From NCBI RefSeq assembly GCF_900142435.1, contig NZ_LT670846.1, positions 462,750 to 526,749 of the forward strand: DNA of 64,000 nucleotides. The letters are read 5' to 3'. The position numbers and the translations under genes were made by a program. Below the pieces are notes generated by a model. It was not told the origin of the DNA and ran no database searches. It saw only the letters and a program-made list of their open reading frames with translations. The stretch comes from Thermocrinis minervae (GTDB lineage: Bacteria > Aquificota > Aquificia > Aquificales > Aquificaceae). Below, one piece after another: positions 33,055-51,467 of the stretch; position 1 is the stretch's first letter, and each line of letters begins with the position of its first letter.

Positions 33055-34115
33055 AGGACTACTACAAAATACTTGGAGTTGACAAAAAGGCCACTAAAGA
33101 AGAGATAAAGAAAGCCTTCAGAGTACTGGCCAAACAGTACCATCCAGATGTTAACCCAGATCCAAAAGCTTCTGAGATATTCAGGGAGATAAACGAGGCT
33201 TACCACGTGCTGTCTGATGACGAAAGGAGAAGGGAGTACGACCGTATACTAGAGAGTGGGGACGAAAAGAAGTACAGGGACTTTATGGAGTACATCCAGG
33301 AGTTTTTGGAGAGCATATGGCAGGGCATGAGAAGACAGCCAAGACCGAAGAGGGGACAGGACATAAGGCTTAAACTAGAACTAACCCTAGAGGAGGCAGC
33401 CTTCGGCTGCGAAAAGGAGATAGAGTACGAAAGATGGACAGACTGCAAAGAGTGCGACTCTAAAGGTTACATAGGAGAGCTCCAGAAGGAGACTTGCCAC
33501 GCATGCGGTGGTACTGGTAGGAGGGTAAGTGGTATATTCTCTTTTCCAAGACCGTGTTCCGTATGTAAGGGAAGAGGATTCATAGTTAAAAACCCATGTC
33601 CCGTATGTGGTGGAAGAGGAAGGATTGCTAGAAGGAGCGCGGTAAAGGTCACCATACCACCGGGCACAGACGAGGATGAAGTTTTGAAGGTAACCGGTTT
33701 TGGACACTTTGGCGAGAGGGGTGGAGAGCCTGGAGACCTATACCTCAGAGTGATCCTAAAACCTCATCCACATTTTAAGAAGGTGGGTAAAGACCTTTAT
33801 ACGGAGAAGTTCATATCCTTTCCTCTCGCTGTCTTAGGGGGCGTGACCAAGGTAAGAACCCTTGAAGGACATGAAGTGGAGATCTTCATACAGCCAGGCA
33901 CAGAACACGGCGCCACGAAGACCATCCCAGGGCTTGGTTTTCCTCACGATAAGGGAAGAGGCAACCTACATGTACTTCTAAAGATAGAAGTACCCAAAGA
34001 CCCGAGTAAAAAAGTAAGGCAGCTCCTTGTAAAGCTTGCCAAGGAGCTGGGCGAAGAAGGTCTGCAAGTGGAGGACAGTTTGAAGGAGAGGATAAAGAGC
34101 ATCTTCAAGCTTTAG
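33051..34115 (+). CDS. Second DnaJ-type co-chaperone
   Basis: The protein has 354 residues, with a GTG start overlapping the glycosylase stop. The J-domain has YHPDVNPDPKASE with HPD. The usual Gly/Phe region is replaced by a charged linker, QGMRRQPRPKRGQD. The four zinc repeats are CKECDSKG, CHACGGTG, CSVCKGRG and CPVCGGRG; the first departs from the CxxCxGxG form. C-terminal substrate domains are complete. It is a paralogue of the dnaJ at 27514-28644. Coupling to recN and ogg2 suggests it may serve a different client set, but no direct evidence is visible. Confidence 0.88.
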   Translation: MKDYYKILGVDKKATKEEIKKAFRVLAKQYHPDVNPDPKASEIFREINEAYHVLSDDERRREYDRILESGDEKKYRDFMEYIQEFLESIWQGMRRQPRPKRGQDIRLKLELTLEEAAFGCEKEIEYERWTDCKECDSKGYIGELQKETCHACGGTGRRVSGIFSFPRPCSVCKGRGFIVKNPCPVCGGRGRIARRSAVKVTIPPGTDEDEVLKVTGFGHFGERGGEPGDLYLRVILKPHPHFKKVGKDLYTEKFISFPLAVLGGVTKVRTLEGHEVEIFIQPGTEHGATKTIPGLGFPHDKGRGNLHVLLKIEVPKDPSKKVRQLLVKLAKELGEEGLQVEDSLKERIKSIFKL

Positions 34116-34713
34116 AAAACCTTTTAACCTCCAAGTAGCTTCCTATCCTAAAGTTAGACCAAAGGATGTTTAGAAGCTTCAAGAATACAAGCGCTGTTGT
34201 TTGAGCATCGCTTAACGCCCTGTGTTCCTTACTGTGCTCTATACCAAAGTAGTTTGCAAGATCATAAAGTCTGTAGCTTTTCAATCCTGGTAGCAGCTTT
34301 CTGGCAAGTTCGAGGGTGCAGACATGAGGGTGCTTAAAGGGCTTTCCGTAGACAGTCCTATGGTACTTGTCTATGAAGCCTATATCTCTCTTTACGTTGT
34401 GCCCCACTATCACGGAGTTTCCTATGAACCTTAAGAATCTAGGTAAAACCTCCTCAAAGGATGGCTTACCTACTAGCATAGCGTTTGTGATACCAGTCAG
34501 CTTTTTTATCCTTTCTGGAATGAACTCACCGGGGTATACGAGCGTGGAGAAAGATTCTGTTATGACTCCGCCCTCCACTCTCACGCACGCTATCTCTATT
34601 ATGTGAGACTTTTCCATGTTTATGCCTGTGGTCTCTAAGTCTATGCTCACGAAGGTGCTCTCCATAAGAAGTTCACCCATAGAAGATAATTTTAGGAGAA
34701 CATGTCTCTCCAT
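34105..34713 (-). CDS. DnaQ-like 3'-5' exonuclease (DEDDh)
   Basis: A DEDDh exonuclease of about 200 aa. Exo I is FVSIDLETTG, Exo II is VGHNVKRDIGFID and Exo III is HRALSDAQTT, with the catalytic His. It matches the proofreading epsilon/PolC-like exonuclease family. Whether it is the DNA polymerase III proofreading subunit or a stand-alone exonuclease is not clear. Start choice is uncertain: ATG 34713 has AAGAGG close upstream, while GTG 34728 and ATG 34680 are also in frame. It overlaps the tail of the flavoprotein gene before it by 22 bp and dnaJ2 by 11 bp. Confidence 0.85.
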   Translation of the reverse strand: MERHVLLKLSSMGELLMESTFVSIDLETTGINMEKSHIIEIACVRVEGGVITESFSTLVYPGEFIPERIKKLTGITNAMLVGKPSFEEVLPRFLRFIGNSVIVGHNVKRDIGFIDKYHRTVYGKPFKHPHVCTLELARKLLPGLKSYRLYDLANYFGIEHSKEHRALSDAQTTALVFLKLLNILWSNFRIGSYLEVKRFSKA

Positions 34714-35945
34714 AAACCTCTTGCCCACTCGTAGTATCTTTTTGCGGTGGATTCTTTACGCAAATTGTCCTCTCTATGGATAGGTATGAACCTATGCATA
34801 GAGACCTCATACCTAAAGCTAGTTTCCGTCATTATTGCCTCTCGGTCGTTTACCATGGCATAGCATATCATGTAAAGAGCTTCCTCTTCTACTTTCTTAC
34901 CTTTTAGTCTAGCGTTTATTATCTTTGCTACAAGCTTACCCTCCGAGTGTGCGGCGAAGCCACTCTTAGGCAGATACCCCTGAGAAGCATCTCCTATAAC
35001 GAACACGTTCTTTACCTTAGTCTCGTAAGTAAAAGGGTCTACCTCTACCCATTTTTCACCTTTCTTCAAAAGACCGGCCTTTTCCAGAAGGGAATTTGCT
35101 TTCATAGGTGGTATGACGTTGGCTATGGTGTATTTAAAATCCCCATGAGAGGTTCTAACAACCTTTTTGTGAACGTCTACCTCCTTTACAGTAACTCCAG
35201 TAACGTAGGTAGCAACATCCTTATAAAGGTCGTAGTAGGCTGACAGAAAACCTTCTGCGTTTATTATAGGTCTTTCGTTGGCATCTATGAAGTAAAGATG
35301 AGCCTTTAGCTTATTTCTCTTTATCATGCTTGCGATTAGGGCCGCTCTCTCATAAGGTGCCGGAGGACACCTGTAGGGAGGTGGCGGAACAGTCATCACT
35401 ATGTCTCCTTCCTCGAACTCTTCTATTAACCTCTTCAGGTATATATGTTCAGAACCAGGTTTAAAAGCGGGCGGGTTGTATATAACAGACTCTTGATAAT
35501 CTGGTCTGTTCTCTATATCGTAGTCTATACCAGGAGATAGTATAAGAAAGTCATAGCTTATGTAAGCATCCGATATCCTAACGCGTTTTTTGTCCAGCTC
35601 TATACCCAAAACCTTATCCCTTATTACCTTTACACCATGCTTGACCTCTAGCACGTTGTAGGAAAAGCACAAGGGTGTAAGCTCCATCAGGCCAGCCAAA
35701 TAATGGTTAGACATAGGGCACGACATAAAAAAGGGTCTCTCCTCTATCAGGACTACGGATAGCTCTGGGTTTTCCTTCTTGAGGTACTTGGCCGCTGTTA
35801 CACCACCATAGCCTCCTCCTACTATCACCACCTGAGCCTTCTTTAAAGTAGCTCCTGAAAAGGCAAGTGATGAAAGAGCAAATGGACCAAAGGCACTGGC
35901 TTTGATTAAATCCCTTCTACTAACACCTGATGGGCTGTTTGACAT
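34692..35945 (-). CDS. Tat-exported FccB-like sulfide dehydrogenase flavoprotein (copy 2)
   Basis: The protein has 417 residues. It starts with a twin-arginine signal (SRRDLIKASAFGPFALSSLAFSGA), then the FAD-binding VVIVGGGYGGVTAAKYL. The redox-active pair typical of flavocytochrome c sulfide dehydrogenase and SQR-like enzymes is kept: Cys193 in YRCPPAPYER and Cys361 in MICYAMVN. Additional Cys76 lies in SCPMSN. It is a paralogue of the gene at 36646-37965, with the same end (EWARGLWRDMF). Periplasmic sulfide or sulfur-compound oxidation is inferred. No fccA cytochrome is adjacent; the Rieske gene overlaps its start by 26 bp instead. Confidence 0.85.
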   Translation of the reverse strand: MSNSPSGVSRRDLIKASAFGPFALSSLAFSGATLKKAQVVIVGGGYGGVTAAKYLKKENPELSVVLIEERPFFMSCPMSNHYLAGLMELTPLCFSYNVLEVKHGVKVIRDKVLGIELDKKRVRISDAYISYDFLILSPGIDYDIENRPDYQESVIYNPPAFKPGSEHIYLKRLIEEFEEGDIVMTVPPPPYRCPPAPYERAALIASMIKRNKLKAHLYFIDANERPIINAEGFLSAYYDLYKDVATYVTGVTVKEVDVHKKVVRTSHGDFKYTIANVIPPMKANSLLEKAGLLKKGEKWVEVDPFTYETKVKNVFVIGDASQGYLPKSGFAAHSEGKLVAKIINARLKGKKVEEEALYMICYAMVNDREAIMTETSFRYEVSMHRFIPIHREDNLRKESTAKRYYEWARGLWRDMFS

Positions 35946-36636
35946 ACTTGCTTACCTCCATCACTACACATCTATCCACTAAGACCTTTGCTTTTGCGGT
36001 AGATCCGTACCTCTCTCTGAGGTCCTGTTTAAAGTTTTCAAAGAAGGGTTCAAACTGATCCACTCCCAGCACACCGACGGCGTAGAGCTTCCCATCCTCC
36101 TCTTCTAAAATTATAGCTGCAAGGGGTACTTCGGCGGGACCTTCTACCACCTGTCCACCCTCCACGGGGTCAAATATGCTGAGGTGTGCGCAGCACTGTA
36201 TGACTCCGGCTTTTTTAGTAGTCTCGGAGGGTTTGTCCATTGCATAGTAACTTATGAAGGCATAATCGGGAGTAGGATAGCTCCACTGATGAGGGCATAT
36301 GGCAGAGTAAGCCACAAGACTTTTCTTGCTTCCTATACCACCCTGCCATGTGTAAGTCTTACCATCTTTTAGCTTTACTTGAGTAGGTTTTACTTCTTTG
36401 CCCAAGTTTATGAGGAAACAGGGTGTAGATGCGTATGGATAAAAGAAGATGTAAGTTTCTTCTTGTTTTAGCTGGCTTTCGGTTATTGGGTTACCTTTTT
36501 CATCCACTAAGAGAGCTTTGTTGTACCTTTTGAGCAGGTTCTCTTGATTTGCCAATACGTTAGAGATAAGGGATGGGTTTAAGGAAGAAGCCACCGCAAG
36601 GGTGGCGCATACCTTTATGAAATCTCTTCTATCCAT
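35920..36636 (-). CDS. Tat-exported Rieske [2Fe-2S] protein
   Basis: The 238-residue protein starts with a twin-arginine signal (DRRDFIKVCATLAVASS). The Rieske ligands are C114-P-H116 and C148-x-x-H151 (QCCAH), with the cluster loops separated by ~30 residues. A further Cys pair near the C-terminus (CVVMEV ... IRC) could form a disulfide. It is not accompanied by a cytochrome b gene, so it is unlikely to be the bc1 complex subunit. Position between two FccB-like flavoproteins, overlapping one and ten bases from the other, suggests it is their electron acceptor or a shared subunit. This is inference. Confidence 0.85.
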   Translation of the reverse strand: MDRRDFIKVCATLAVASSLNPSLISNVLANQENLLKRYNKALLVDEKGNPITESQLKQEETYIFFYPYASTPCFLINLGKEVKPTQVKLKDGKTYTWQGGIGSKKSLVAYSAICPHQWSYPTPDYAFISYYAMDKPSETTKKAGVIQCCAHLSIFDPVEGGQVVEGPAEVPLAAIILEEEDGKLYAVGVLGVDQFEPFFENFKQDLRERYGSTAKAKVLVDRCVVMEVSKYVKQPIRC

Positions 36637-36645
36637 ATCAGCTCC

Positions 36646-37965
36646 TCATGCAAACATGTCCCTGTATAAACCCTTCGCCCATTCATAGGTGGCTTTAGCT
36701 AGCTGTTGAGACCTTTGGTTTATGACCTTCGGCTTAGGCACTATCTTCTTTTCCTTTTCGTTAAAGCTGTACTCAACGCTTATCACTATAGCTTCCTGCG
36801 GGTCACCGTTCACCATGGAGTAGCATGTGTTGTCTGGCAGTGCAGGAGTTATATCTTTGCCCATCATCCTTGCGGCTATTATCTTTGCTACTATCTTACC
36901 CTGAGAGTTGGCCATGTGACCGCTCTTAGGATAAGGAACTCCACCTATCACGTCTCCCACAAGGAATACCCTCGGGTCTGACTTGGCCTGGAAGGTCAAA
37001 TGGTCTTGGTCTGCCCAGCCTGTAGGCTTACCATCTTTGTCTTTAGCTATGAGGTCTGCCATCCACACGAGCTCACCAGCCTGGTGTGGTGGGTTGAGGT
37101 TTGCATCCGTAAAGTTAAAGTCTCCTTGAGAGGTCTTTATGACTTTCTTTATAGGATCTACTTCCTTTATATGAGCGTTTGGTACGTATTCCACTATACC
37201 TGCATAAAGCTCGTTGTAGGCAGCCATAAACCCTGGGCCCTTTGGAACTATCTCAGGCTTAGGGTCAAGGATGACTACCCTACCCTTTACCTTGTTCTTT
37301 TTAAACACGTAGGCTATCATAGCAGCCCTTTCGTATGGAGCCGGCGGACACCTGTAAGCTCCGGGAGGAACCGTTATAACAAACTCACCCTCCTCAAAGT
37401 TCCAGATCTTTCTCTTAAGAGCCAGGTGTTCAGATCCTGGTATGAAAGCAGAAGGATAGTGTAACATCGTGTATTTTATGAGGTCCTTGTTATCCTTGAA
37501 CCATGCGGAGTAGTTGTATTTTATACCTGGTGCCAGAACAAGGTAGTCGTACTGTATGTAACCATGCGGTGTGTAAACCCTTCTCTTATCCCTTTCTATG
37601 GCAAGTACAGTGGTGTTTATAAACTTGTAACCATACTTGGCCGCAGGCTGGTTGTAGTCATGTGAGAGAAAGTCAAGGCTTACAAGATCTGCAAGCCACT
37701 CGTTGCTTATAGGACATGAGAAGAAGTTAGGTCTTTTCTCAATCAGGATAACCTCCGCGTTGGGAGCTTCTTTCTTCAGATACTTAGCTACCGTAAGGCC
37801 TGCCCATCCACCACCTACTATCACCACTCTATTGCCCTTGGGTTCGGGTAGCATGGCTTCCTTTTTAACTATCGTCTCGGCGGCGGCAAACACGAGTTTG
37901 GGTGTAGAAAGCGCAACACCACCCAAGCCCAAGCCCTTGAGAAAGGACCTTCTGCTTGTATTCAT
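36646..37965 (-). CDS. Tat-exported FccB-like sulfide dehydrogenase flavoprotein (copy 1)
   Basis: The protein (439 aa) is the first gene of the operon. Twin-arginine signal SRRSFLKGLGLGGVALS is followed by the FAD motif VVIVGGGWAGLTVAKYL. Redox cysteines are C206 in YRCPPAPYER and C381 in NTCYSMVN; C84 lies in SCPISN. The FAD-contact GD appears in VFLVGDVIGG. It belongs to the FccB/SoxF flavoprotein family. GGGAGGT lies before the ATG. The C-terminal EWAKGLYRDMF is shared with its paralogue. The substrate (sulfide, polysulfide or another reductant) is not fixed by sequence. Confidence 0.87.
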   Translation of the reverse strand: MNTSRRSFLKGLGLGGVALSTPKLVFAAAETIVKKEAMLPEPKGNRVVIVGGGWAGLTVAKYLKKEAPNAEVILIEKRPNFFSCPISNEWLADLVSLDFLSHDYNQPAAKYGYKFINTTVLAIERDKRRVYTPHGYIQYDYLVLAPGIKYNYSAWFKDNKDLIKYTMLHYPSAFIPGSEHLALKRKIWNFEEGEFVITVPPGAYRCPPAPYERAAMIAYVFKKNKVKGRVVILDPKPEIVPKGPGFMAAYNELYAGIVEYVPNAHIKEVDPIKKVIKTSQGDFNFTDANLNPPHQAGELVWMADLIAKDKDGKPTGWADQDHLTFQAKSDPRVFLVGDVIGGVPYPKSGHMANSQGKIVAKIIAARMMGKDITPALPDNTCYSMVNGDPQEAIVISVEYSFNEKEKKIVPKPKVINQRSQQLAKATYEWAKGLYRDMFA

Positions 37966-38011: not shown

Positions 38012-38184
38012 GTCGTAAACCATCACCAGTGTTATAAAATGTTTTTAGAAGTTAATAAGTGTTTTTTATGTACTAATATTCTTGTATTCTTAATCTATTT
38101 TGTTCTAATAGTACACACTTTTTTTTACGTTCTCTATATAATAACCAATAGCACAACTATTAAAAGTAAGAGGAGGTGATAAAG

Positions 38185-38610
38185 GTGGTAGATCCAGATA
38201 TACTACTCCTGGCCATAGTAAACATGGCGGAGGGCGTAAAAACGCTCATAGGTGATAAGGGAGCAAAGGCCGTTATGAGGGATGCAGGTAGACAGGCCGG
38301 GCCAAGGCTTTTAGAGAGCCTGATAGGACACTTTCCAGAAGTTCTAAGCAAGGATGAAGCTATCAGGCGAGCTTGTGCAATACTTGAGGATCTGGGTTTT
38401 GCAAAGAGTATTCAAAAACAGGAGGATAAGATAGTAGTCAATGAAGACATATTCACAGATGCTATAGTGGGCAACGATCTTATAGGATCGCCTGTAATAT
38501 ACTTCCTTGCTGGGCTAATAGAGGGCTTTGTTTCCTTCATGAGTAATGAGAAGATATCCCTTACTCCAGAAACTGTTCAAAGGGGAAGTATAGTTTATAG
38601 GATAGGATGA
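38185..38610 (+). CDS. Conserved protein of unknown function upstream of nadD
   Basis: The protein has 141 residues from the GTG at 38185, chosen because AGGAGGTGA at 38171-38179 lies just before it. I do not recognise the family with confidence. The chain is mixed alpha/beta: a helical start (DPDILLLAIVNMAEGVKTLIG), a GRQAGPRLLESLIG helix, and a single FAKSIQKQEDKIVVNE strand pair. The overall pattern is faintly like V4R small-ligand-binding domains. It overlaps nadD by 4 bp (ATGA), so it is co-translated with it. There is no signal peptide. Confidence 0.7.
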   Translation: MVDPDILLLAIVNMAEGVKTLIGDKGAKAVMRDAGRQAGPRLLESLIGHFPEVLSKDEAIRRACAILEDLGFAKSIQKQEDKIVVNEDIFTDAIVGNDLIGSPVIYFLAGLIEGFVSFMSNEKISLTPETVQRGSIVYRIG

Positions 38611-40608: not shown

Positions 40609-40836
40609 TTACTTGGGTTGAGCTGGTTGAGCGGGTTGAGCGGGTTGTGCAGGCTCTGCTCCCTTCTTTTCTTCCTTCTTCTTGTGAGCCTTCTTGTGGT
40701 GCTTCTTGTGAGCCTTCTTATGTTCCATCTTTTCTTCCTTCTTTTCCTCCTTCTTCTCGGCAGGAGCAGCTTGTTCTGCTGCTATGGCAGCACCTGCAAA
40801 GGCTACAGCTAATAGAGCTGCTAGAAGCTTCCTCAT
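40609..40836 (-). CDS. Small secreted Lys/His-rich low-complexity protein
   Basis: A 75-residue protein. A clear signal peptide (MRKLLAALLAVAFAGAAIA) is followed by EKKEEKKEEK, then HKKAHKKHHKKAHKK and a tail of four AQP repeats. The mature part is almost only Lys, Glu, His, Ala, Pro and Gln. A strong GGAGG Shine-Dalgarno precedes the ATG, and a hairpin follows the stop, so it is a real expressed gene despite low complexity. It could bind metal through His, or bind anionic wall or lipid through Lys. No family is recognised. Confidence 0.75.
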   Translation of the reverse strand: MRKLLAALLAVAFAGAAIAAEQAAPAEKKEEKKEEKMEHKKAHKKHHKKAHKKKEEKKGAEPAQPAQPAQPAQPK

Positions 40837-40895
40837 GGCTAAACCTCCTTACAAAGATTTTATATTATTATAGTACTACGAGTCTTATGAAAAAC

Positions 40896-42206
40896 TCATG
40901 AAAAACACAGATAAAATTTGGAACCTGCTCCTGGTTGACTTTCTACGTGTATCCTAAACCCGTGAAGATCGGCGATGGCTTTGACTATAGAAAGGCCAAG
41001 GCCAAAGCCTTCCTTTTCACCATCTTCCCTGTAGAACCTTTCAAACACCCTTTGTGTATCCTTTATTCCCTTGCCCGTGTCTTCTACTACTACGCAGTAT
41101 TCCTTGATGTACAGCTTTATGGTACCTCCTTCAGGTGTGTACTTGTAGCTGTTTTCCACAAGGTTTGATATGGCTATTTTAAGGTATTCTCTGTCGGCGA
41201 GCACTATTAAGTCTTCTTTGGGATACTCTACTATAAAGTTGTGGGTGTTTCTTATGTACTCGTACTCTTCCTCCACCTCTGCGAATACTTCAGAAAGGCT
41301 CAGTTCTTCCTTCTTTATGGGAATGCCGCTTTCAAGCCTCATAAGAAGCAAAAGTTTATTTATGAGCCTATGCATCTTTTCTGCTTGAATCTGCATGCTT
41401 TTTATAACCTCCTTAAACTTTTCCTTATCGGTTTCATACACGCCATAGCTTAAGAGTTCCAACTGACCTTTTATGTAGGTAAGTGGAGTTTTGAGAGCAT
41501 GTGCAAAGTTGGCTATTGTTTCCTTTTGAAAGTTGAAGGTCTCTTTTAATTTTTCTAACATATCTGCAAAAGTGTTTATAAGTATGGAGAATTCATCTTT
41601 TGCGTTTTGTTTTTTTATGTTAACATCCATATTACCTTTGTATACCTCTCTTAATTTATCCGTTAAGTACGTAAGCGGCTTAAATGCAGATCTTACAAGA
41701 AAGACTATTATTAGAGATGTTAGGATAGATACTACAGAAGAAAGTGCTAATGTAAAAAAGATGAGTTTCTTCTGTATCTGTTTTATTTCGTCTATTTTGT
41801 TTAAAAATATAAGCTTATAATTTCCGACTGTTTTTGTTATGAAGATATAATCGTTGATCACACCGTGCTTCTCTTTGATTACATTTTCTACGTCTAAAAG
41901 AGGCAATCTTTCTTCATCATAATTTGAGAAGCTATAGATGTAAAGTATCTTATTCTTTTTGTTTAGCACTATAACGGATAGCCTTTCTGAAGCTAAAGCT
42001 TCCGCTAAACCTCTTATGTAGATCTTAGGGTCTTTATAATGCTTTCTGTATACATCCAATATGGGTGAAACATATCCATCGATATAATCTATTGCGTGAC
42101 CTACAAGCACTGTCCTTATAGCTAATACCAAGAATACGGTAGTTATCACATTACTAAATAGGTAAACTCCTAAGAATATGATTAGTATCTTTAGTTTAAC
42201 TGTCAT
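40896..42206 (-). CDS. Sensor histidine kinase
   Basis: The protein (436 aa) has two membrane helices (about 6-35 and 148-172) flanking a ~110-residue periplasmic sensor. A HAMP linker, the phospho-acceptor FAHALKTPLTYIKGQLELL with His236, and an ATPase domain with NLVENSYKYT and the GLGLSIVKAIADLHG box follow. It pairs with the OmpR-type regulator just upstream (11-bp overlap). The signal is unknown. A Thr-Pro after Lys follows the acceptor His, as in the EnvZ/PhoR-type core. Confidence 0.92.
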   Translation of the reverse strand: MTVKLKILIIFLGVYLFSNVITTVFLVLAIRTVLVGHAIDYIDGYVSPILDVYRKHYKDPKIYIRGLAEALASERLSVIVLNKKNKILYIYSFSNYDEERLPLLDVENVIKEKHGVINDYIFITKTVGNYKLIFLNKIDEIKQIQKKLIFFTLALSSVVSILTSLIIVFLVRSAFKPLTYLTDKLREVYKGNMDVNIKKQNAKDEFSILINTFADMLEKLKETFNFQKETIANFAHALKTPLTYIKGQLELLSYGVYETDKEKFKEVIKSMQIQAEKMHRLINKLLLLMRLESGIPIKKEELSLSEVFAEVEEEYEYIRNTHNFIVEYPKEDLIVLADREYLKIAISNLVENSYKYTPEGGTIKLYIKEYCVVVEDTGKGIKDTQRVFERFYREDGEKEGFGLGLSIVKAIADLHGFRIHVESQPGAGSKFYLCFS

Positions 42207-49730: not shown

Positions 49731-51467
49731 ATGAAGCCGGATAGCAGTGTCAAACAAGTCATCATATATGAGATAGTTTTGGGTATAGCCCTTTTGGTGT
49801 TTGGTGTCTATCACGGACTTATGCAAGTTCTCTACAGGGCAGGCGTTATAAAGGACATGTCCTTCGCAAGCATTGAGTACTACCAAGGTCTTACCCTCCA
49901 CGGCGTCATAAACGCCATAGTTTTCACAACACTGTTTATAGTGGCCTTTGGTAATGCAGTCTTCTGGTACCATCTTAAGAAGCCTCTGAGACCTGCAGTC
50001 CAATGGACTAGCTTTATCCTCATGTTTGTTGGTACCCTTATGGCCGCATGGGCTATGTTCACAGGAAGGGCAAACGTGCTCTACACCTTCTACCCACCAC
50101 TCCTCGCCCATTGGACCTTCTACCTGGGTGCAGCATTGTTCCTTGTAGGTTCGATAGTACCTCTCCTTGATTGGATACCTAACTATCTCGCTTGGAAGAG
50201 GGAAAACCCCGACAAGAAGGTGCCACTTGCTGTCTTTGGTGTGCTTGTAAACCACATAATGTGGGTGATAATGCTAGTACCTGTGGTTATAGAGGTACTC
50301 TTCCAACTACTACCGCTGTCTTTGGGACTCGTGAGTGAGATAAACCCTTCCCTTGCAAGAACTCTCTTCTGGGCCTTTGGACACCCAGTGGTTTACTTCT
50401 GGCTACTGCCTGCTTACGTGATGCTCTACACGGTCCTTCCTAAGATAGTTACAGGTGATGGAAAGCTCTATTCAGACTCCGCGGCAAGGCTTGCCTTCAT
50501 ACTGTTCCTCATATTCTCCTTCCCAGTAGGACTCCATCACCAGTTTACAGAGCCAGGTGTGACAAACAACTACAAGCTTATACATGCCTTCTTTACCTTT
50601 GGCGTAGCTATCCCCAGCATGCTAACAGCCTTTACGGTTGCGGCATCCCTTGAGTATTCCATAAAGTCCAAGTATCCAGAGCTAAAGGACAGTCTATTCT
50701 ACTGGTGGACAAAGATACCTTACATAAGCTTAGAGGGAGACAAGTGGCTTGTGTCCTACTTTATGGCAGGACTATTCCTCTTCTTTGTAGGTGGTATAAC
50801 TGGTATAATCAACGCCTCATACAACATGAACCTTGTGGTTCATAACACCTCCTTTGTACCAGGTCACTTCCACACCACCGTAGGTGGTCTGGTCACGCTA
50901 TCCTTCTTGGGTATGTCCCTGTACCTTGTTTCTAAGCTCACAGGTAAGGAGATAAGGTTTAAGGGGCTTGCCGTTTTGGCCCCCTGGCTATGGTGGCAAG
51001 GCATGCTCATCTTTGAGTACGCTATGTCTGTAGCCGGTTTACATGGTTTCCCAAGAAGGACCAACACGGGCATATCCTACCTAAACCCCGATTCTCCTCT
51101 CTACAGGCCTGAATGGGTAGGCTATGCAGAGCTGTCTGTATTTGCGGGAATTCTCATAGTATTGGGCTTTGTCTTCTTCGCCATATCCTTCTTCGGAACG
51201 CTTCTATCACCAAAGGTAAGGGAAGAAACTTTGGAGCTTCCTTCGGCTGAAGCCTATCATGATGAAAAGGTACCAGCTCTCAACAAGATCCTACCTTGGG
51301 CTGTATTCAGCTCTTTGTTGTTCCTCATATCCTACATACCACCTCTATACGATGTGACCAAGAGGGGTGTATTCTTTGACTCTCCAGGATACAACGACAA
51401 GAATCCTATGCCTGTAACTAAGCCACAGGGTAGCGCAGAGCAAAATAAGAAGGTTTCTCAAGAGTGA
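49731..51467 (+). CDS. Cytochrome c oxidase subunit I, B-family (ba3 type)
   Basis: The 578-residue protein has about 13 membrane helices. Heme and copper ligands are visible in LTLHGVINAIVF, in AFGHPVVYFWLLPAY (CuB His with the cross-linked Tyr region), in GLHHQFTEPG and in VPGHFHTTVGG. The HPVVYFWLLPAY form, without the A-family K-channel residues, places it with ba3/B-type oxidases, which have high oxygen affinity. It reduces O2 to water and pumps protons. AAGGAGGTGAG precedes the ATG. No subunit III gene follows; a Sco-like chaperone does. Confidence 0.96.
   Translation: MKPDSSVKQVIIYEIVLGIALLVFGVYHGLMQVLYRAGVIKDMSFASIEYYQGLTLHGVINAIVFTTLFIVAFGNAVFWYHLKKPLRPAVQWTSFILMFVGTLMAAWAMFTGRANVLYTFYPPLLAHWTFYLGAALFLVGSIVPLLDWIPNYLAWKRENPDKKVPLAVFGVLVNHIMWVIMLVPVVIEVLFQLLPLSLGLVSEINPSLARTLFWAFGHPVVYFWLLPAYVMLYTVLPKIVTGDGKLYSDSAARLAFILFLIFSFPVGLHHQFTEPGVTNNYKLIHAFFTFGVAIPSMLTAFTVAASLEYSIKSKYPELKDSLFYWWTKIPYISLEGDKWLVSYFMAGLFLFFVGGITGIINASYNMNLVVHNTSFVPGHFHTTVGGLVTLSFLGMSLYLVSKLTGKEIRFKGLAVLAPWLWWQGMLIFEYAMSVAGLHGFPRRTNTGISYLNPDSPLYRPEWVGYAELSVFAGILIVLGFVFFAISFFGTLLSPKVREETLELPSAEAYHDEKVPALNKILPWAVFSSLLFLISYIPPLYDVTKRGVFFDSPGYNDKNPMPVTKPQGSAEQNKKVSQE

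Follow-up and report, generated by a model that had tools for sequence, protein, structure and literature searches.

Three consecutive genes of Thermocrinis minervae, encoding a flavoprotein of the flavocytochrome c sulfide dehydrogenase type (FccB/FCSD; here A), a Rieske protein (R) and a second such flavoprotein (B), probably specify a variant of the flavocytochrome-c-type sulfide or sulfane dehydrogenase in which an AioB-like Rieske protein takes the place of FccA. In textbooks the periplasmic sulfide dehydrogenase is flavocytochrome c, an enzyme whose cytochrome subunit is its defining feature. The evidence, as read from the sequences, comprises gene order, Tat motifs, redox cysteines, Rieske ligands, gene linkage, a separate flavoprotein clade and recurrent clustering with sox genes, and to these is added the AioB-like fold predicted for R. 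The A-R-B system is genuine and conserved, and its make-up hints at a function; it was partly anticipated in 2012 (PMC3504083).

Organization of the A-R-B operon

All three genes lie on the minus strand of the window, by which we mean the whole 64,000-nucleotide stretch of DNA that was analysed, and in the direction of transcription their order is A, R, B (Table 1).

Table 1. Coordinates of the A-R-B genes in the window.
Feature	Position	Strand	Length	Characteristics
Flavoprotein A (FccB/FCSD-type)	36646..37965	-	439 aa	Tat signal; C84 covalent FAD site; C206 and C381 redox cysteines
Rieske protein R	35920..36636	-	238 aa	Tat signal; ligands C114/H116/C148/H151; without classical disulfide; invariant C149 and C-terminal C238; AioB-like fold (predicted)
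Flavoprotein B (FccB/FCSD-type)	34692..35945	-	417 aa	Tat signal; C76 covalent FAD site; C193 and C361 redox cysteines
R-B overlap (end of R, start of B)	35920..35945	-	26 nt	

A and R are separated by a 9-nt gap, B shares 37 nt with the next gene, which encodes a DnaQ-type exonuclease (34105-34728), and a Shine-Dalgarno sequence resembling GGAGG precedes each of the three starts. The twin-arginine motifs are SRRSFLK in A, DRRDFIK in R and SRRDLIK in B; the curated NCBIfam Tat cut-off is reached by A alone, the signals of R and B having been judged by eye. The original prediction, that three consecutive Tat-signal genes encode flavoprotein, Rieske protein and flavoprotein with no FccA/SoxE cytochrome or cytochrome b beside them, is borne out at the locus, and neither a haem-binding CxxCH protein nor a cytochrome b was found adjacent to the operon. 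A ba3-like COX1 gene, assigned by its GHPxVY motif, is located in the window 12 kb from the operon (49731-51467).

Two other open reading frames were observed on the plus strand. One, of 144 aa, is divergent from the operon (38176-38610) and has no Pfam or NCBIfam match; the other (40647-40901) is a Pro/Ser low-complexity frame with repeated LPSFLPS-like units and is probably a short DNA repeat, not a gene.

The flavoproteins form a clade separate from FccA-linked FccB

In profile searches both flavoproteins match FCSD_central (PF21706) far above its cut-off of 27 bits (99.7 bits for A and 86.2 for B), and the top solved-structure match of both is the FCSD 5n1t (E 1e-53 and 4e-60). The two redox cysteines that had been proposed for each flavoprotein are numbered exactly, the covalent-FAD cysteine is kept in addition, and these active-site cysteines are present in nearly all of 100 flavoprotein homologues. 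The FccAB proteins of Allochromatium and Thermochromatium (1fcd, 3vrd, 5n1t) thus share with A and B the flavoprotein fold, the covalent-FAD cysteine, the redox cysteine pair and Tat export, but they have the cytochrome FccA where the present operon has a Rieske protein, and A and B fall in a separate clade. This separation was seen in a tree of 77 rows, made up of 53 Rieske-linked flavoproteins (counting in a few proteins of that clade that stand alone) and 24 canonical FccA-linked FccB proteins; the two form distinct groups with a split support of 100/100, and A and B do not group with FccA-linked FccB.

Finer placement within the tree is unsure because the branches leading to Methylomirabilota and to the genomes G324 and G345 are long. 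Since the two flavoproteins of G345, a member of the Pseudomonadota, are sisters (support 100/98), the flanking pair arose at least twice, independently. Furthermore, A-type flavoproteins stand alone without R at several loci (L054, L056, L064-L068), and one G324 locus (L198, 5336-10722) consists of FccA-FccB, a YeeE-like transporter, an A-like flavoprotein, SoxY and SoxZ, without R and with the FAD cysteine replaced by Gly; because such proteins occur in the absence of R, the flavoprotein family does not require R.

R is an AioB-like Rieske protein with an invariant terminal cysteine

The Rieske ligand residues C114-x-H116 ... C148-x-x-H151 are present in R, which matches the Rieske profile PF00355 at 25.9 bits (cut-off 20.3). 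Its predicted structure (mean pLDDT 89.4) has the arsenite oxidase small subunit AioB as nearest solved fold (E 5e-9), followed by SoxF of Sulfolobus. Among named NCBIfam families the top score, 101.8 bits, is for SoxL2 (TIGR03171), with a curated cut-off of 582.1, and the AioB family (TIGR02694) scores 56.6 bits against a cut-off of 95.65; because R lies under both curated cut-offs, it constitutes a subfamily of its own.

The likeness to AioB extends beyond the predicted fold to the YP..S.PC motif and the Tat signal, and the AioB of strain NT-26 and R are both without the Rieske disulfide. The two cysteines that usually form it are absent from R; we infer that Y120 and A150 occupy their positions, comparable with F108 and G123 of NT-26 AioB, a protein with a potential of +225 mV (PMC3758308). 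R differs from AioB in that AioA is absent and the neighbours are of the FccB type, and also in a C-terminal extension of about 45 residues with an invariant final cysteine and in an invariant CC in box 2.

Five cysteines of R (C10, C114, C148, C149 and C238) are invariant in a 17-row alignment drawn from Aquificota, Pseudomonadota and Methylomirabilota. Over a larger set, the C-terminal residue is Cys in 74 of 75 R homologues, the one exception ending in Cys-Gly. C10 was considered as part of a lipobox and rejected by eye, its context being wrong, and the terminal cysteine cannot be a by-product of the R-B overlap, since it is kept where B is absent. So conserved a cysteine at the C-terminus is an oddity that lends itself to direct testing.

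Conservation of the R-flavoprotein linkage

R is present in 61 of 136 Aquificota genomes (E below 1e-30), nearly always as a single copy. A PF21706 search of 61 genomes, after which the neighbourhoods were read, yielded 32 relatives in which R lies on a contig that could be read, and in every one of these R is immediately preceded by an FccB-family open reading frame, which is broken in G036 and G050. Downstream, B is found in 20, a B fragment in one and a contig edge in one, while 10 have no B. Conservation of the linkage rules out a chance neighbourhood, and the arrangement is not unique to one genome. Ten of the 32 share with the window an R-B overlap of exactly 26 nt, which suggests translational coupling of R and B. 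As for the duplication of the flavoprotein, two flavoproteins are common, but the second is not obligatory.

Outside the Aquificota, scanning of genome contigs, followed by further searches, turned up R beside FccB-type genes in two genomes of Methylomirabilota and in three of Pseudomonadota, the latter all from a single order. The Methylomirabilota loci read FccB-R-SoxYZ fusion (L133) and SoxYZ-FccB-R (L148, with SoxYZ read by eye from the N-terminus). Of the Pseudomonadota, G345 has a complete flavoprotein-R-flavoprotein trio, G768 has the same order truncated by the contig end, and G735 has two FccB-R pairs, the more intact at L206 and the other (L207, 6672-8977) with a flavoprotein from which the FAD cysteine and one of the redox cysteines are missing.

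Approximately 20 Gammaproteobacteria (L113-L132; Thioglobus, Acidiferrobacteraceae, Granulosicoccaceae and others) carry a relative of R that does not adjoin an FccB gene, its neighbours being mostly formate-dehydrogenase-like or glycolate-oxidase-like genes, and in 8 of 12 such genomes, some of them incomplete assemblies, no FCSD gene was found. Box 2 of these proteins reads CCSE, with Glu for the second His ligand, and the terminal cysteine is retained; the swap (18 rows) is a single change on the R tree, and the proteins are possibly Rieske folds with an altered or lost cluster. Every flavoprotein-linked R has the full Rieske ligand set except that of L133 (1665-2327), where box 1 reads C-S-D-Q with a His ligand replaced by Asp; this gene directly precedes the fused SoxYZ gene, and the flavoprotein of the same locus is without the covalent-FAD cysteine. 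An apparent "HF" ligand state in L070 is an artefact of motif matching within its leader. Because the unlinked gammaproteobacterial clade has Glu and yet keeps the cysteine, the complete ligand set tracks the flavoprotein link, and the terminal cysteine is independent of it.

Genomic context: FccA, the bc1 complex and sox genes

That an FccA encoded elsewhere pairs with both A and B was considered and rejected: with Hydrogenothermaceae FccA as query, no orthologue was found in the T. minervae genome (E <= 1e-3), and clear FccA orthologues are limited to three of 61 genomes. In these three (G042, G056 and G057, all Hydrogenothermaceae) the order is an FccA-like cytochrome, a canonical FccB, R, B and then soxXYZAB, the sox genes having been called from order, size and haem motifs, with SoxY confirmed. 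The T. minervae genome also has a complete bc1 operon (Rieske-cytb-cytc, C1:1266.6-1268.9 kb), and because this separate complex has its own Rieske protein, R is spare for another job; with no cytochrome b linked to it, R is ruled out as the bc1 Rieske.

A cluster of soxY, soxZ, soxA and a soxB-like gene lies at C1:1187.7-1191.9 kb, 0.69 Mb from A-R-B (497-501 kb). Location within a sox cluster, a mark of SoxF/SoxEF, is not seen in T. minervae but is found in the Hydrogenothermaceae and Methylomirabilota relatives. In raw counts over 61 genomes, which ignore kinship, SoxY is present in 35 of 35 R-bearing genomes and in 16 of the 26 others.

Relation to the dhsU cluster

A metagenome paper of 2012 drew the order dhsU1-Rieske-dhsU2 in the large sausage-shaped bacterium, a relative of Sulfurihydrogenibium (PMC3504083); literature searches found no other publication on a cluster of the A-R-B type. 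Recombinant DhsU1, a monomer, showed sulfide dehydrogenase activity and was active without the Rieske protein, DhsU2 was not expressed, and the Rieske gene was listed without interpretation (PMC3504083). The two clusters are alike in the flavoprotein-Rieske-flavoprotein order, in the Tat signal on the first flavoprotein and in belonging to the phylum Aquificota. DhsU1, however, is described as 50% similar to Allochromatium FccB and has a cytochrome gene upstream (PMC3504083), and by that description it corresponds to a canonical FccB, as in G042, G056, G057 and L084, in a cluster that runs on into sox; A belongs to a different clade, and neither cytochrome nor sox genes adjoin A-R-B. The proposal of an undescribed Rieske-linked sulfur-oxidising complex therefore stands in part: the linkage of FCSD-type flavoproteins to a Rieske protein is conserved and no FccA orthologue was found in the T. 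minervae genome, but the gene order had been published.

Proposed function and competing explanations

From these observations we infer that the three proteins form a complex, and its electron path and substrate may be pictured as follows. A, R and B would be exported by the Tat system and act in the periplasm as a dehydrogenase whose substrate is sulfur at the sulfide level or sulfane sulfur. At the Cys-Cys/covalent-FAD site of each FccB-type flavoprotein, sulfide, polysulfide or sulfane sulfur held by a carrier would be oxidised. Electrons would leave the flavoprotein singly for the AioB-like R, a stand-in for the FccA/SoxE cytochrome subunit, and pass from there to a soluble cytochrome c and the terminal oxidase. 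The minimal unit would be A-R, with B as an additional flavoprotein of specialised role, translated together with R. The sulfide dehydrogenase activity of DhsU1, from the related locus, speaks for this reading. Against it stand the fact that DhsU1, the only assayed protein, is of the canonical FccB type and active without its Rieske protein, and the occurrence of A-type flavoproteins without R.

Given that relatives carry these genes beside SoxYZ, sulfur bound to a carrier has to be taken seriously as an alternative substrate. Perhaps, then, the complex acts not in bulk sulfide oxidation but in removing or oxidising SoxYZ-bound sulfur and so maintaining the carrier in an active state while R carries off the electrons. 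In Paracoccus the FCSD homologue encoded by the sox cluster is the flavoprotein SoxF, an FCSD-type flavoprotein is associated with SoxYZ in several lineages here, SoxYZ clusters directly with these genes in three unrelated settings, and soxYZ, soxA and soxB-like genes occur in T. minervae itself. The present system differs from SoxF/SoxEF in having a Rieske protein in the place of SoxE. In T. minervae and in most Aquificaceae, however, the operon lies far from the sox cluster, and we regard this role as unlikely. It is compatible with the variant dehydrogenase, the two not being mutually exclusive.

The cysteines of R invite other ideas. It is conceivable, though distinctly unlikely, that R couples electron and sulfur transfer, its C-terminal cysteine on the added segment taking a persulfide from the flavoprotein while the cluster takes the electrons; the sulfur would then go on to SoxYZ or another acceptor, making R a Rieske protein that doubles as a sulfur carrier. 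That R should be mainly a sulfur-handling protein, whose terminal cysteine takes persulfide sulfur from the flavoprotein active site and whose iron-sulfur cluster is secondary, seems improbable. The near-universal terminal cysteine, the invariance of C149 beside a ligand across three phyla and the replacement of one ligand His in the gammaproteobacterial clade and of one in L133 are in its favour, and SoxY, which holds sulfur on a C-terminal cysteine arm, offers a precedent; but all flavoprotein-linked R proteins other than that of L133 retain their Rieske ligands, and the terminal cysteine could be structural or a disulfide partner.

The nearest fold of R, a subunit of arsenite oxidase, raises the question of whether the substrate of the flavoproteins might be a different thiol or a metalloid, with electrons leaving through an AioB-like protein. 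Such a substrate appears highly improbable, since every profile calls both flavoproteins FCSD, the molybdopterin subunit is absent, and the genomic context, where informative, is that of Sox. Lastly, the notion that R is the Rieske protein of a SoxL2/bc1-like cytochrome b complex that oxidises quinol, with the flavoproteins as coincidental neighbours, takes its support from the leading SoxL2 score but is scarcely tenable, as that score is far under the family cut-off, SoxL2 of Sulfolobales operates with cytochromes b and none is beside R, the bc1 operon has a Rieske protein of its own, and the R-FccB linkage is kept in three phyla.

Implications

If the variant dehydrogenase proposed here is correct, FCSD-type flavoproteins would gain a second electron exit, with a Rieske protein in the cytochrome's place, and AioB-like Rieske proteins would acquire a role beyond arsenite oxidation. 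It would also account for how Aquificaceae, in which FccA is lacking, may oxidise sulfide or sulfur bound to SoxYZ, and the lineage in which a Rieske protein replaces the cytochrome would span many Aquificota and scattered Pseudomonadota and Methylomirabilota.
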